From the IMG/VR virus record IMGVR_UViG_3300044946_000060, positions 1 through 37,531 of that record: DNA of 37,531 nt; one strand, written 5' to 3'. A program made the position numbers and the translations under genes. This document shows positions 17,460 to 33,197 of the stretch, in pieces; position 1 is the first letter of the stretch, and every line of letters starts with the position of its first letter. This stretch comes from a virus. The notes below the pieces were generated by a model. That model was not told the origin of the DNA and ran no database searches. It saw only the letters and a program-made list of their open reading frames with translations.

Positions 17460-17657
17460 TTATTTTTTCTCCTTTAATAATTTCTCATAAATTTCTTTTC
17501 TGTGTACAACCATGTTAGATGGAGCTGTGACCCCAATCTTGACGAAATTTTCCTTTATGTAGATTATTTTAAATTCCATCATTGATTCTTCATGACCAAA
17601 CATACCTTCTGGGTAAATGCAGATTGTTTCTTTTTCTTTTCTTCCTAGTACTAGCAT
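17460..17657 (-). CDS. csrA: CsrA/RsmA-type RNA-binding regulator
   Basis: A 65-residue protein with the CsrA fold: MLVLGRKEKETICI at the start, FVKIGVTAPSNMVVHRKEIYEKL in the second half. R53 in VHRKEI corresponds to E. coli R44, and L4 to L4, both key RNA contacts. A nine-residue insertion (within PEGMFGHEESMME) lengthens the loop after the first strand. CsrA dimers bind GGA in hairpin loops, often over ribosome sites. It has AGGAG upstream and sits in the accessory operon under operator copy B. Many plus-strand leaders here carry GGA loops. Confidence 0.88.
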   Translation of the reverse strand: MLVLGRKEKETICIYPEGMFGHEESMMEFKIIYIKENFVKIGVTAPSNMVVHRKEIYEKLLKEKK

Positions 17658-21600: not shown

Positions 21601-23148
21601 ATGGAAGAATTAGTATTAGACAAGGAAGTCATAGCCTCGCGCTTGCGCGGAAGCTTATTAACATTCACGGAATATTTCTATTTTATTCTTACGGGACGTA
21701 GGTTTATTATCTCCCAGCCCATCGGCCGTGAATCTCATCATATCACTATCGCAAAAGCGCTCACACGTGCGGCACGATTAGAGCTTCTTACCCAGCGTTT
21801 ATTGGTAAATGTTCATCCTGGGTCTGGTAAATCTACGCTACTTTGTATGTGGATCGCGTGGTGCATGGCACCTTTCCCAGATTCTCGTTTTTTGTTTCTT
21901 TCTTTTTCCAAAGTCCTCGCTGCAAAGCACACAGAAACCGTTAAGCGCATTATGCAGTTGCCGCAGTATCAATATCTATTCGGCGTGACTATTCGGCATG
22001 ACTCAAAAGCTAAAGAGTTCTTCCAGACCACCGCTGGTGGCGCTGTGGCGGCCTTTGGAACGGGGGGGGCCATAACGGGGCAAGATGGCGGCCTTCCCGG
22101 ACTTGAGAGATTTTCGGGCGCTGTGATTATTGATGATGCACACAAACCGGATGAAGTGCATTCAGACACCATACGCGCGAATGTAATTAACAACTGGCGT
22201 GAGACGATACAGCAACGTACACGTGGTATTAACGTACCGTTTATATTCATCGGGCAACGACTTCACGAAGACGACTTAGCGGCTTATTTATTAGCTGGCA
22301 AGGATGGCTACGAATGGGAACAAGTCATCATAGAGAGCTTAGATGCTGCGGGTAATGCGTTGTACCCCGAAGTCTACCCCCTCGAAAAGCTTTTAAAACT
22401 GAAAGAAACAGACCCATACGTTTTCGCCAGCCAGCACCAGCAAAATCCGATTCCCGCGGGCAACTCGCTATTTAACAAAGACTGGTTTGTGCTGCTACCA
22501 GAAGAGCCGAAAATACTATCCAGCTTTATTATGTGCGACACTGCCGAGACCAACAAAAGCTACAATGACGCGACAGTGTTTTCATTCTTCGGTATTTATG
22601 AAATTGAGGTCCTAGGCGTTAAAACCGGTCAATATGGTCTGCACTGGATTGACATGCTAGAGTGCCGCATTGAGCCTAAAGACTTGAAATCTACGTTCTT
22701 AGAGTTCTGGGCGAACTGTATGCGCTATCCCGTGCCGCCGCAACTCATAGGTATTGAGGCTAAGTCTACCGGCAGTACTTTGCTTAGCGAAATATCAGAA
22801 ATACGTACAATTAGGCTCTTAAGCATAGAACGCACACGCGCACAAGGGGGCAAAACGAAGCGATTTTTGGCAGTTCAGCCCTACGTTGCCGAGCGCCGAA
22901 TATCTTTGCCGGAATATGGCAGACATACCAAAGTCTGTACTGACCACATGATTAAAATTACAGCAAATGAGACCCACCGCTGGGATGATATCGCAGATAC
23001 TCTAGCGGATGGTGTTAGAGTTGCGCTCATTGAGAAAACTTTGCTCCTACCGATAACTTCAGGCGCTAATTACAGTGAGCTTGCAAAAAATGTGACTGGA
23101 TATCAGAATAAGGTAAATCAATTAAGAAGGCGGGCTTATGGCAGATGA
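21601..23148 (+). CDS. terL: Terminase large subunit
   Basis: A 515-residue packaging motor. The ATPase half has Walker A HPGSGKST at residues 72-79, Walker B VIIDDA near 175-180, and a conserved FIGQRLHEDDL segment near 215-226. The nuclease half has RNase H-like acidic residues: D313 (FIMCDTAETNKSYND), E386 (IGIEAKSTGS) and the WDDIADTLADG motif (about 461-471). It cuts concatemers and drives DNA into the head through the portal. Its stop overlaps the start of the alpha-CTD-like gene by 11 bases. Confidence 0.95.
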   Translation: MEELVLDKEVIASRLRGSLLTFTEYFYFILTGRRFIISQPIGRESHHITIAKALTRAARLELLTQRLLVNVHPGSGKSTLLCMWIAWCMAPFPDSRFLFLSFSKVLAAKHTETVKRIMQLPQYQYLFGVTIRHDSKAKEFFQTTAGGAVAAFGTGGAITGQDGGLPGLERFSGAVIIDDAHKPDEVHSDTIRANVINNWRETIQQRTRGINVPFIFIGQRLHEDDLAAYLLAGKDGYEWEQVIIESLDAAGNALYPEVYPLEKLLKLKETDPYVFASQHQQNPIPAGNSLFNKDWFVLLPEEPKILSSFIMCDTAETNKSYNDATVFSFFGIYEIEVLGVKTGQYGLHWIDMLECRIEPKDLKSTFLEFWANCMRYPVPPQLIGIEAKSTGSTLLSEISEIRTIRLLSIERTRAQGGKTKRFLAVQPYVAERRISLPEYGRHTKVCTDHMIKITANETHRWDDIADTLADGVRVALIEKTLLLPITSGANYSELAKNVTGYQNKVNQLRRRAYGR

Positions 23149-23707
23149 GATTAGCATTGATGTTTTAGCGCTAACAATGCGCGCAGAGAATGCTTTAAAA
23201 GACAAAGGACTTGATACCATTTCTAAATTAGAAGAATTTATATATAGATGTAAGCTCCGAGGAAGTCGTGGTCTTAGAGAAATTCACAATATTGGTGGTC
23301 TTAGTGAAAAAGTGATATTGGATGAGCTGAAATTTTATCGAGAGAAGCACCCGCACTCCATACAATTGATTGATAATGTAAAGCCCGAGCCAGAAATAGA
23401 CTACGAAAAAATCCAAGATAATATTATCCTCGCCCTAAGAGGTATGATTAATACATTTAAAAGAGATCTCGAAGAAGGTTTGCATGAGCATGTGAAAGCT
23501 TACATAAACCCTCTCGGTAACGACTTGCATTCGAAACTTTTACAACATATTAACGAACTCAGAACCATCGTCTTAGAACAATCGCGTATCTTAGAAGGCG
23601 TACAAGCACTTAGACAACCAAACGGCATTATCAACAAAATCGCAGAAAAAATACCAGGTTTTGACACTACGATTTATGAATTGTATAAAAAGCTGTATGG
23701 GGAATAG
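23138..23707 (+). CDS. RNA polymerase alpha-CTD-like protein
   Basis: A 189-residue protein. Residues about 6-70 resemble the helix-hairpin-helix domain of bacterial RNA polymerase alpha-CTD: LTMRAENALKDKGLDTISKL and IHNIGGLSEKVILDEL. R15 and N18 match E. coli R265 and N268, the main DNA contacts, and N51, G53 and S56 match N294, G296 and S299. The remainder is a helical, coiled-coil-like region ending in a small domain. It may bind DNA or contact polymerase. It is translationally coupled to terL. Confidence 0.65.
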   Translation: MADEISIDVLALTMRAENALKDKGLDTISKLEEFIYRCKLRGSRGLREIHNIGGLSEKVILDELKFYREKHPHSIQLIDNVKPEPEIDYEKIQDNIILALRGMINTFKRDLEEGLHEHVKAYINPLGNDLHSKLLQHINELRTIVLEQSRILEGVQALRQPNGIINKIAEKIPGFDTTIYELYKKLYGE

Positions 23708-24444: not shown

Positions 24445-25032
24445 ATGTCAGAATATCAAATAGACATAAGAATAAAAAATGGACTTATTTTACAGAAGAT
24501 AAAGCAGCAAGGTTATGAAAGCCTAGCTGCATTTTGCAGGGCTACGACAGTTTGCCTTCATTCATTACACCAACTATTAGCTTTTAAACGTTCACCATTG
24601 GACACAAAAGGTAATTATCGTCCCATAGTATATAAACTATGCGAAACCCTAAATTGCGTTCCTGAAGAACTGTTTACTGCTCAACAAATGGATTTAGAGC
24701 TAAAATCTAATAAGCGGACACTGCTCGTTAATGAAGCAGAAATGCGCCATCATCTTGAGCGATTTAATGATGTAAAGAGTTTGGAAGACCAGCGCATGGA
24801 TGAACAATTGCATGAAACATTAAATAATACTTTAGAGCAGCTTACAGCGCGAGAACAAAAGGTATTAGATATGAGATTTGGATTGACGGACGGGATATCA
24901 CATACTTTAGAAGAGATTGGGATAAATTTTGGAGTTAACCGCGAACGCATTCGACAAATAGAAGCCAAAGCATTACGTAAACTAAGAAACCCTAACTTTG
25001 GCGGTCAACTCCGCGAATTTATACAACAATGA
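24445..25032 (+). CDS. XRE-sigma region 4 fusion regulator
   Basis: A 195-residue protein joining two DNA-binding parts. Residues about 24-78 look like an XRE-type domain ([20 protein letters not shown], then [14 protein letters not shown]). Residues 128-183 are a clear sigma70 region 4: [38 protein letters not shown] and EAKALRKLR, the -35-binding helix-turn-helix. Sigma region 2, needed for -10 recognition, is absent, so it cannot be a complete sigma factor. It may redirect host polymerase at phage late promoters. Confidence 0.85.
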
Positions 25033-27508: not shown

Positions 27509-27686
27509 TGAGAAAACAAAACAACGAATAAGTGATGTTATTACTGTTCATGAATTTTTCGAAGTATTAGGCATACCATTTGATATAATATATCCGAATA
27601 TTCCAATTCCCAAGAATTCGAGGGAATTAAGTAGTAACAGTAAAATCTTAAAGGACGAAGATTATGAGAAAAGTGACATGGAATGA
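27480..27686 (+). CDS. Small protein of unknown function
   Basis: A 68-residue protein beginning MGKKNEPQVDEKTKQRISDV. ATG 27480 is taken as the start, with GTG 27471 as an alternative. It contains HEFFEVLGIPFDIIYPNIP and a charged end. It overlaps the portal end by 29 bases and the next gene by 23, so the four small genes after the portal are a tightly coupled series. Not recognised. Confidence 0.55.
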   Translation: MGKKNEPQVDEKTKQRISDVITVHEFFEVLGIPFDIIYPNIPIPKNSRELSSNSKILKDEDYEKSDME

Positions 27687-30867: not shown

Positions 30868-30932
30868 TAAGTAAATTGGTTGTGTGGATTGCAATGGCTT
30901 TGAATTGGTTCTCCATTACTATTCAAAGATAG

Positions 30933-31088
30933 TTGCAAAGGATTGCGGCTAAAGAAGTTACAAAGGATGGTGGCTTCTGCTCTCCACAACAAAGAACGAG
31001 ACTCGCGCGTTATGCGAGGTATAAGCGTGATGGCGTAATAATCCGAGATCTGTGCGACAGCAGAGTAACTACCGTGGCGGGGAAATAG
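30933..31088 (+). CDS. Possible 51-residue basic protein upstream of scaffold
   Basis: A TTG-started frame runs 51 codons to a TAG 12 bases before the scaffold gene. The product is basic, with QQRTRLARYARYKRDGVIIR followed by DLCDSRVTTVAGK, which looks more protein-like than random. There is no clear ribosome site and no known homologue. The alternative is a structured leader RNA: the CTCGC/GCGAG hairpin lies within it. Confidence 0.3.
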   Translation: MQRIAAKEVTKDGGFCSPQQRTRLARYARYKRDGVIIRDLCDSRVTTVAGK

Positions 31089-31100
31089 CTAGAAGGACTT

Positions 31101-31832
31101 ATGGACAGTAATGTTATGGATAACGCGTCTGATCTTAATCAGACCCAGGCAGCACCAGCAGCACAAGGTAGTGCTGAAAAAATGGTGCCTCAATCACAAG
31201 TGAACGAAATTGTTGGCAATGCAAAGCGTGAAGCTGCTGAACGTGCTATTGAAACTTATCGAAGACAACAAGCGCAATCAGCCAGTCAAGTACAAGCAGA
31301 GCCGCAATATCAGGGATATGCAAATCCCGCTCGTAATGCGTCAGAAGAGGACGTAAAACGAGTAGCGAATGATGAGATTAAGAAACACTTTGATCAACTA
31401 AAGCAGGAAGCACAGGAACGCATGAGCGTTGCTGAAGCTAATCGAGTTGTTAGTTTGTTTAAAGAAAAAGTCTTAGCTGGGAAAGATAAGTACGAGGACT
31501 TTGACACGGTAGCCGGTAGCGTCGCAATGCAACATTATCCAAATGTCGTGCATCTTTTAGCAGAACACGTGGATAATTCAGCAGATGTTCTCTACCATCT
31601 CGCTAAGAATCGATCGAAACTTTCTCAGCTAGAATTTACCTGTGCTCACAATTCACCAGATGCCATTTACGAGATCAAACGTTTGTCAGATTCTATCAAA
31701 GCAAACGATGACGCCTCACAAATGAAAAATGCCAAAGCGCCACTGTCACAGACAAGACCTTCTAACATCGGCACGGATTCGGGTGGTGGTTCTTTGTCTA
31801 TTGCGGATTTAAAGCGCAAATACAGGGGTTAA
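31101..31832 (+). CDS. Scaffolding protein
   Basis: A 243-residue, Gln/Ala/Lys-rich helical protein directly before the coat gene. It has a disordered N terminus (about 1-70), long helices (DEIKKHFDQLKQEAQERMSVAEA) and a basic C terminus (SIADLKRKYRG), the part that binds coat subunits in P22 gp8. It guides procapsid assembly and leaves before DNA packaging. It is shorter than P22 gp8 (about 300). AAGGAC precedes the ATG. Confidence 0.78.
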   Translation: MDSNVMDNASDLNQTQAAPAAQGSAEKMVPQSQVNEIVGNAKREAAERAIETYRRQQAQSASQVQAEPQYQGYANPARNASEEDVKRVANDEIKKHFDQLKQEAQERMSVAEANRVVSLFKEKVLAGKDKYEDFDTVAGSVAMQHYPNVVHLLAEHVDNSADVLYHLAKNRSKLSQLEFTCAHNSPDAIYEIKRLSDSIKANDDASQMKNAKAPLSQTRPSNIGTDSGGGSLSIADLKRKYRG

Positions 31833-31847
31833 GCTAAGCACCTCGGA

Positions 31848-31872
31848 TCCTAACTTACGGACAAGTTAGGAG
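31848..31872 (+). promoter_or_regulatory. Coat-gene hairpin: ACGGAC loop, ribosome site in stem
   Basis: TCCTAACTT (31848-31856) pairs perfectly with AAGTTAGGA (31863-31871), a nine-pair stem closing the six-base loop ACGGAC (31857-31862). The ribosome site AGGAG (31868-31872) is in the right arm, so folding hides it from ribosomes. ACGGAC is an exact ANGGAN loop, the form RsmE/CsrA binds, and a second GGA lies in the ribosome site itself. ATG follows at 31881. It is the strongest candidate regulatory RNA in the window. Confidence 0.7.
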
Positions 31873-31880
31873 CAATTAAC

Positions 31881-33197
31881 ATGGCAGTTTTCCCTACAAA
31901 TATTTTACAACAAGTGCAGACGTATCAACGTTCTGGGCTTGCTCTATTACAGAACTTATGTTGTCATATTTCGACAGCTAATACAAAATTTAAAGATTTT
32001 GACAAGATACAGGCCAATTTGGGCAGTACGGTAACCTTCGATCTTCCTCCAAGATTTACGACCACTGCTGGTCTAGTAGCTGCGTGGCAATCTGCGGTAC
32101 AACGCGTATTACAGTTAACCTGTGACCAAGCTAACAACACCTCATTCGCTGTTACGGCACAACAACGCATCTTCAACTTGGAAAAAGGCGAAGAAGATTA
32201 CATGCGTGTGTTTGGCAAGTCTGCGATTGCAGAAATTGCAGCTCAAGTTGAAGGTAATGTTGCGTTAAATTGGGCTTCAGCAGTTGTAAGCCAGCTAGAC
32301 GGAACGACTAATACTTTTTCAGGGCCATACCGTTTTTACGGAAACGGTTCTACAGCCATCAGCTCATACCAGCAATTAGCTCAGGCCATCATGTTTTTCA
32401 AAAACTATGGCAGCGTCGCTGAAGGAATCAAGGTTTATCTACCTGATACCATCATCCCAAGCGTTGTTGGTAATGGTTTGAACCAATTCGTACCCCATCG
32501 TAATGATGAGATAGCCAATAGTTGGGAAGTGGGCGATTTCGGCACGCCATTAGTAAACTATTATCAATCAAACTTAATGCCTATCCACGTGTCTGGCGAT
32601 ACTGGCGTTAATCAGCAAACATTGACCGTAGTATCTACTAATGATCCTACAGGACAAAACGTTACACAAATTACGTTAAGTGGTGCTACCGCTAGTGATG
32701 CTAATGCTGTTTTTGCTGGGGATTTGTTCCAATTTCAAGATGGCGTAAGCGGTCAGCCGAACATGCGTTATTTGACATTTATTGGACACTTTCCAAGCGC
32801 TAACCCTGTGCAGTTTCGGGCAACGGCAAATGCTGCGGCAAATACTTCTGGTAATGTGACAATCAATATCACACCTGCATTGAACTGGGCTGGTGGTCAA
32901 AACCAAAATGTTAATAATCCTATCGTAGCAGGCATGCAAGTTTTGGGATTGCCCTCGCACCGTTGTGGCGGCATTTTAGGTGGCGATGCTTTCTTTATGG
33001 CGATGCCTCAATTACCCGAACAAGATCCTTATCCAACAGCAAATGAGTATGACGAGACAACACACGCATCGTTACGTTTGACCTATGGCTCTCTCTTCGG
33101 ACAAAACCAAACCGGAATGATTTACGACGAAACTCACGGCTCAGTAATGGTGCCAGAGTACACAATGCGTTACATCATCCCACTATCACAAGGCTAA
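31881..33197 (+). CDS. Major capsid (coat) protein, P22 gp5 type
   Basis: A 438-residue HK97-fold coat protein. The N terminus resembles P22 gp5 (QQVQTYQRSGLALLQNLCCH; KFKDFDKIQANLGSTVTFDL PPRFTTTAGL), followed by a spine helix region and an inserted beta domain (about 240-330) like the P22 I-domain, and it ends EYTMRYIIPLSQG. Length is near P22 gp5 (430). It assembles the head on the scaffold. Its leader has the strongest GGA-loop hairpin seen here. Confidence 0.92.
   Translation: MAVFPTNILQQVQTYQRSGLALLQNLCCHISTANTKFKDFDKIQANLGSTVTFDLPPRFTTTAGLVAAWQSAVQRVLQLTCDQANNTSFAVTAQQRIFNLEKGEEDYMRVFGKSAIAEIAAQVEGNVALNWASAVVSQLDGTTNTFSGPYRFYGNGSTAISSYQQLAQAIMFFKNYGSVAEGIKVYLPDTIIPSVVGNGLNQFVPHRNDEIANSWEVGDFGTPLVNYYQSNLMPIHVSGDTGVNQQTLTVVSTNDPTGQNVTQITLSGATASDANAVFAGDLFQFQDGVSGQPNMRYLTFIGHFPSANPVQFRATANAAANTSGNVTINITPALNWAGGQNQNVNNPIVAGMQVLGLPSHRCGGILGGDAFFMAMPQLPEQDPYPTANEYDETTHASLRLTYGSLFGQNQTGMIYDETHGSVMVPEYTMRYIIPLSQG

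Follow-up and report, generated by a model that had tools for sequence, protein, structure and literature searches.

What does a hairpin do on the ribosome site of a viral coat gene, and what might read its loop? This question is raised by a stretch of viral DNA of 37,531 nucleotides (IMG/VR record IMGVR_UViG_3300044946_000060, positions 1 to 37,531), referred to below as the window. An earlier note, made from the letters alone, had described a hairpin in the coat leader that hides the ribosome site and displays an ACGGAC loop, and had suggested CsrA as a protein that could bind it. The genes and elements concerned are as follows.

31101..31832, + strand: scaffolding protein gene (PHROG 8865, head scaffolding, E 5e-9)
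31848..31871, + strand: coat-leader hairpin of 9 bp sequestering the Shine-Dalgarno (SD) sequence, from folding prediction; conserved and covarying
31857..31862, + strand: apical hexaloop ACGGAC (ANGGAN, CsrA/Rsm-type); ANGGA also occurs in relatives' leaders
31868..31872, + strand: coat-gene SD, AGGAG, with AGGA within the stem
31881..33197, + strand: coat protein gene, 438 aa, from tblastn to annotated coats and gene order

The hairpin on the coat ribosome site

The 438-aa product was assigned as the coat protein because it has 22% identity to annotated coats of Shewanella phage X14 and Vibrio phages (tblastn, E 2e-6 to 3e-6), because the gene order in the window, i.e., portal-scaffold-coat, is the same as in X14, and because a P22-type portal (PF16510, E 1.3e-96) and the scaffold-family match lie upstream. 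Pfam gave no match to this product, and PHROG gave a weak match only. Its start codon is the ATG at 31881.

The hairpin in front of it has the sequence UCCUAACUU-ACGGAC-AAGUUAGGA (31848-31871, + strand), with 31848-31856 pairing with 31863-31871 in nine Watson-Crick pairs. The perfect nine-pair stem, the ACGGAC loop and the pairing of AGGA claimed in the earlier note were thus all confirmed, both in the sequence and by RNA folding; the last G of the SD (31872) is unpaired. Folded alone, the hairpin had a predicted energy of -9.6 kcal/mol, and in its context the GG of the SD had a predicted pairing probability of 1.0. By itself, however, such a hairpin is unsurprising, because perfect hairpins of at least 9 bp with loops of 4-10 nt occurred at three places in the window, compared with a mean of 1.35 in shuffled sequences, and because the folding z-score of the surrounding 141-nt region was only -0.68. 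The evidential weight lies in the position of the hairpin on the ribosome site and in its conservation, not in its mere occurrence. A promoter or terminator reading of the region was rejected, since candidate sites were no more numerous than in shuffles and no U-run lies 3' of the stem.

Elsewhere on the + strand of the window, a hairpin AATCTT(AAAGGACG)AAGATT at 27644-27663 lies directly 5' of an ATG (27664), and its loop may contain a ribosome site. Of the genes at 24445-25032 and 23138-23707 (+ strand), one matched sigma-70 region 4 (E 1.4e-16) and the other gave a weak match to the C-terminal domain of the RNA polymerase alpha subunit.

Conservation of the stem and its loop

Stem conservation was assessed across the leaders of related coat genes, 99 distinct ones including that of the window; a second, alignment-based coat scan recovered the same 80 loci. 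In the minimum-energy fold, the GG of the coat SD was paired in 93 of the 99 leaders (mean z -2.44), compared with 133 of 373 leaders that carry an SD in front of other open reading frames at the same loci, and its mean pairing probability was 0.96 in the coat leaders versus 0.47 in the 373 controls. Among 71 leaders that were aligned, 88.6% of stem cells paired, a value flattered by the choice of leaders with recognisable arms, whereas the count of 93 out of 99 is not so biased. The same alignment contained 29 stem cells changed on both sides, compared with 12.2 after shuffling (0 of 500 shuffles), and pairing fell to 25.9-53.5% when the partner was slid by 1-3 columns.

Two stem types, UCCUAAC and UCCGAAC, were seen among the relatives, and the second contains a G-A mismatch. 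At the two pairs that involve the G's of the SD, the 5' side varied only from C to U, giving G-U pairs, which argues that the pairing acts in the + strand RNA. This same variation, together with the asymmetry of the frequent G-A mismatch, disfavours a reading of the palindrome as a DNA operator. In a further 48 leaders, mostly with 45-80% coat identity over the matched stretch, the SD was paired in 36, and the stem sequences were mostly unrelated (e.g., UCUCC..GGAGA). These comparisons give good support to the coat gate as a conserved RNA structure. The earlier note had reckoned with relatives that keep AGGAG only, without stem or loop; what was found is that compensatory changes maintain the stem in relatives, and that about half of them keep an ANGGA loop. 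In L348, L405, L416 and other distant relatives, a GYCATTRTC-like motif was present at, or just 5' of, the 5' arm of the coat hairpin.

CsrA binds GGA in hairpin loops, within ANGGA, the high-affinity form being CANGGANG hexaloops (PMC4894983, PMC7492729). An ANGGA with a free N in hairpin loops is specifically a CsrA/Rsm signature, and the window loop, ACGGAC, carries A-N-GGA at its apex; its closing pair is U-A rather than the C-G of the high-affinity form, a pair that is not demanded of every CsrA site.

An apical-loop GGA was present in 54 of the 99 leaders, and in all 54 it formed part of ANGGA; the one other GGA caught by the loop check was L202's own SD. The ANGGA loops occurred in 35 distinct contexts, with N being U in 21, A in 10, C in 2 and G in 2. 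On a maximum-likelihood, midpoint-rooted coat tree, parsimony gave 16 changes at N, 13 and 15 at the adjacent flanks, and none at the A; loop positions had been set by GGA only, and GGA itself could not vary in this count, whereas the A was not selected for. Two distant loops, ACGGAU and AUGGAC, sat on unrelated stems at 63-64% coat identity. The 13 rows of the deepest clade all carried ANGGA, as did several other early branches; the coat-loop motif is therefore probably ancestral and appears to have been lost several times, whereas the stem was not lost. The 45 leaders without a loop GGA nearly all keep the stem, which argues that the stem has a role independent of CsrA, and that CsrA cannot be a general opener or locker of these hairpins. 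A reading of the loop GGA as a second Shine-Dalgarno sequence was disfavoured, since N is mostly U and the A is kept two bases 5' of GGA.

Elements upstream of the scaffold gene, and csrA

Further elements on the same strand lie upstream of the scaffold gene.

30930..30951, + strand: second ANGGAN hairpin, UAGUUGCA-AAGGAU-UGCGGCUA; exact hexaloop in relatives
30953..30978, + strand: further hairpin with GGA loop AAAGGAUG, 9 pairs including G-U; from the window sequence alone
30997..31043, + strand: tandem pseudoknot RNA, unit 1; covariation over 57 units
31044..31090, + strand: tandem pseudoknot RNA, unit 2, from the unit model; ends directly before the scaffold ribosome site

Of 73 phages, 30 have a hairpin with at least four pairs and an exact ANGGAN hexaloop in front of the scaffold gene, about 20 nt before the tandem pseudoknot RNA, compared with 0.3 expected from shuffles; the 30 phages are interrelated, and the excess does not amount to 30 independent events, the independent evidence being the varying stems around a fixed loop rule. 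These stems differed by compensatory changes (UGCA/UGCA, UGCC/GGCA, UGCU/AGCA and GUGUC/GACAU), and in several relatives the loop was closed by a C-G pair (e.g., UGCC-AUGGAU-GGCA). The upstream hairpin was kept in several phages whose coat loop has lost GGA. As far as sequence comparison goes, two conserved hairpins sharing one loop rule are the best evidence for a putative CsrA-family reader of the operon.

In L204, L136 and L279, two adjacent ANGGA hairpins, possibly inside an outer helix, sit about 205-225 nt upstream of where the scanned region ends and are reminiscent of Rsm/Csr sponge RNAs. A hairpin GUUA-UGGA-UAAC at 31111-31126 (+ strand), in the first scaffold codons, recurs in relatives (GTGTTATGGATAACGC) and could reflect a protein-coding constraint.

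Each unit of the tandem RNA measures some 48 nt and was modelled as a pair of H-type pseudoknots; unit 2 runs right up to the ribosome site of the scaffold gene, AGAAGGA (31091-31097). Across 57 units, 96.3% of the cells were paired and 8 of 11 pairs changed on both sides, with 135 double-change cells compared with 42 after shuffling, although the structure was drawn by eye from these same 57 units, which favours the percentage paired and, to a lesser extent, the double changes. The covariation score was 0.572 versus 0.242, and pairing reached at most 47.8% when slid. An Rfam scan of the whole window gave no match, the tandem RNA included, and a lax threshold around the site gave a single, chance-level match to a CRISPR repeat. 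A pattern scan detected the unit in further contigs, and 70 out of 82 of these also have a gene for a relative of this coat, so that the tandem RNA looks confined to this phage family. We regard it as a candidate new RNA family, set apart from the HK022 put RNA, which we weighed as an identity for it, by the description of the latter only. Its position suggests that it controls translation of the scaffold, whose synthesis is autoregulated in P22, and the tandem double pseudoknot may perhaps be a more novel object than the coat hairpin.

The phage also carries a candidate reader of its own, on the opposite strand.

17460..17657, - strand: phage csrA, 65 aa (Pfam CsrA, 51.6 bits; cut-off 27)

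Its VHRKEIY aligns with VHREEIY of a solved CsrA, so that the R44 region, VHR.EIY, is kept and the product belongs with the CsrA family. Genes for csrA are known in a few phages, with 30 having been counted (PMC7366521). Most relatives with a loop ANGGA that are represented by long contigs had no csrA, an absence limited by the possible incompleteness of the contigs; this suggests that the reader, if it is CsrA, is usually the host's protein. An attempt to name the host from MAG contigs was set aside, since Bacteroidetes, Parvularculaceae, Sulfuricurvum and beta-proteobacterial bins disagreed, these probably being stray phage contigs. Seven out of eight csrA-bearing leaders lacked a coat-loop GGA (one of the seven having only a partial csrA at a contig end), and among csrA-bearing relatives the gene and the loop GGA occurred together only in the window. 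This negative association (Fisher p 0.018) is a suggestive lead, the events being non-independent: csrA changes only three times on the tree, and there are only three independent pairs. Phage csrA as an obligate partner of the loop was rejected as a general rule, because most loop phages lack csrA and most csrA phages lack the loop GGA. The csrA-bearing L047, L065, L066, L075, L076, L079 and L188 had neither a coat-loop GGA nor an upstream ANGGAN hairpin, the window being the exception.

The CsrA reading of the coat loop is supported by strong motif evidence. As put forward in the earlier note, this reading stood in part: the second ANGGAN hairpin and the presence of csrA in the phage spoke for it, whereas the 45 out of 99 leaders without a loop GGA, and the restriction of csrA plus loop GGA to the window, spoke against it as a general account. 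The on/off switching in that note, and its ranking of coat as the most highly expressed virion gene, are assumptions.

Reading the proposed gate

We favour, with moderate confidence, a translational gate on the coat gene, closed by default and read by a protein of the CsrA family that is probably the host's in most relatives; in this phage, the reader could also be its own CsrA. The gate would act in cis within the scaffold-coat transcript, the folded hairpin hiding the coat SD from the 30S and keeping coat translation low by default, and capsid production is probably gated at translation. The apical ANGGAN loop would be a CsrA/Rsm-family binding site. Our first choice is that CsrA would bind the closed hairpin and lock it, causing repression, and our second that it would unfold the hairpin, as with E. 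coli ymdA. Locking is ranked above opening because the GGA lies wholly within a stem-supported apical hexaloop, only 7 nt from the paired GGA of the SD, so that binding should favour the folded state. Late in infection, the extra ANGGAN hairpins near the scaffold gene on an abundant capsid transcript could titrate CsrA and so free coat synthesis. Because leaders that have lost the loop motif retain the stem, sequestration of the SD would have a value of its own, to which the loop adds a reader. The earlier note had also envisaged CsrA on both the loop GGA and the ribosome-site GGA; a single dimer is unlikely to do so while the hairpin is closed, because the spacing between them, 7 nt in the window and 7-11 nt in relatives, is at or below the bridging range of 10-63 nt (PMC7652899), and because the SD GGA is fully paired.

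Would the hairpin work as well with no CsrA at all? It could make coat translation depend on what happens on the scaffold gene, i.e., arrival of a ribosome or reinitiation, or fix the ratio of scaffold to coat, with the loop GGA a modulator in some lineages or irrelevant. Retention of the stem where GGA is lost, and the SD pairing that persists in more distant leaders, would fit such a gate, as would the closeness of the scaffold stop, which lies 15 nt before the hairpin in the window and, in 94 relatives, at a median distance of 14 nt. However, this distance ranges from -1 to 74 nt, and, by the geometry of the mRNA channel, a ribosome terminating 14 nt upstream should stop just short of the stem; the spacing neither fixes nor excludes translational coupling from scaffold to coat. 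Since such a gate also leaves unexplained the frozen A before an NGGA whose N changes 16 times, and the second ANGGAN hairpin, we consider it rather unlikely. It is less probable still that CsrA activates by melting the hairpin and opening the SD. If a hairpin shuts off a needed gene by default, something has to open it, and the ymdA leader, with an SD-sequestering hairpin that holds a CsrA site, is the closest experimental precedent (PMC7492729). Yet the ymdA site is partly buried in its stem and has a second site just upstream, whereas here the GGA is fully apical and no upstream ANGGA adjoins the coat hairpin, and phages without a loop GGA still need coat. Autoregulation by a phage protein, i.e., coat or scaffold binding the hairpin with ANGGA as its own motif, seems very improbable. 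It is known for coat or scaffold in other phages, and coat or scaffold would be available as a partner in every relative, but neither protein shows any sign of RNA binding in Pfam or PHROG, and ANGGA is the CsrA/Rsm signature and is missing in about half of the relatives.

A wider version of the favoured CsrA-read gate may be offered tentatively: a podovirus-like family would have placed its capsid operon under host Csr, the ANGGAN hairpins and a new class of tandem pseudoknot RNA tying scaffold and coat synthesis to free CsrA and to the state of assembly, and phages with their own csrA would mostly have lost the sites. If the gate is as we propose, phage csrA and host Csr gain a concrete viral target, and one can test directly whether a host carbon and stress regulator sets the timing of capsid synthesis in phages.

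Control by CsrA/Rsm is known for bacterial mRNAs, and in the open-access literature we found no capsid gene for which a conserved hairpin of the CsrA type had been described. The coat operator hairpins of RNA phages lie, as here, at a phage translation start, but they have a different loop motif, belong to an RNA genome, and repress the replicase rather than the coat. In the E. coli ymdA leader (PMC7492729), as in ours, a hairpin fully sequesters the SD and holds a CsrA-type GGA; unlike ours, this is a bacterial gene for which activation has been shown, and whose CsrA site lies partly within the stem and is closely preceded by another, whereas the phage GGA is at the apex. The E. coli glgC leader, where CsrA bridges loop and SD (review PMC7652899), shares a loop GGA and an SD GGA with ours, but its SD lies outside the hairpin and within bridging range; the dual-site arrangement of glgC was not found here. 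The Campylobacter jejuni flaA leader, which is repressed by CsrA and self-titrating (PMC4894983), also serves an abundant, self-assembling structural protein and has ANGGA hexaloops, stem-loops supported by compensatory changes, and a GGA at the ribosome site. It differs in that ANGGA occurs in two stem-loops, whose GGAs are separated by 21 nt and of which the second covers the ribosome site, whereas the phage leader has a single ANGGA loop whose stem contains the SD, and its GGAs are 7 nt apart. The proposed titration by the other ANGGAN hairpins of the phage transcript would parallel that of flaA.
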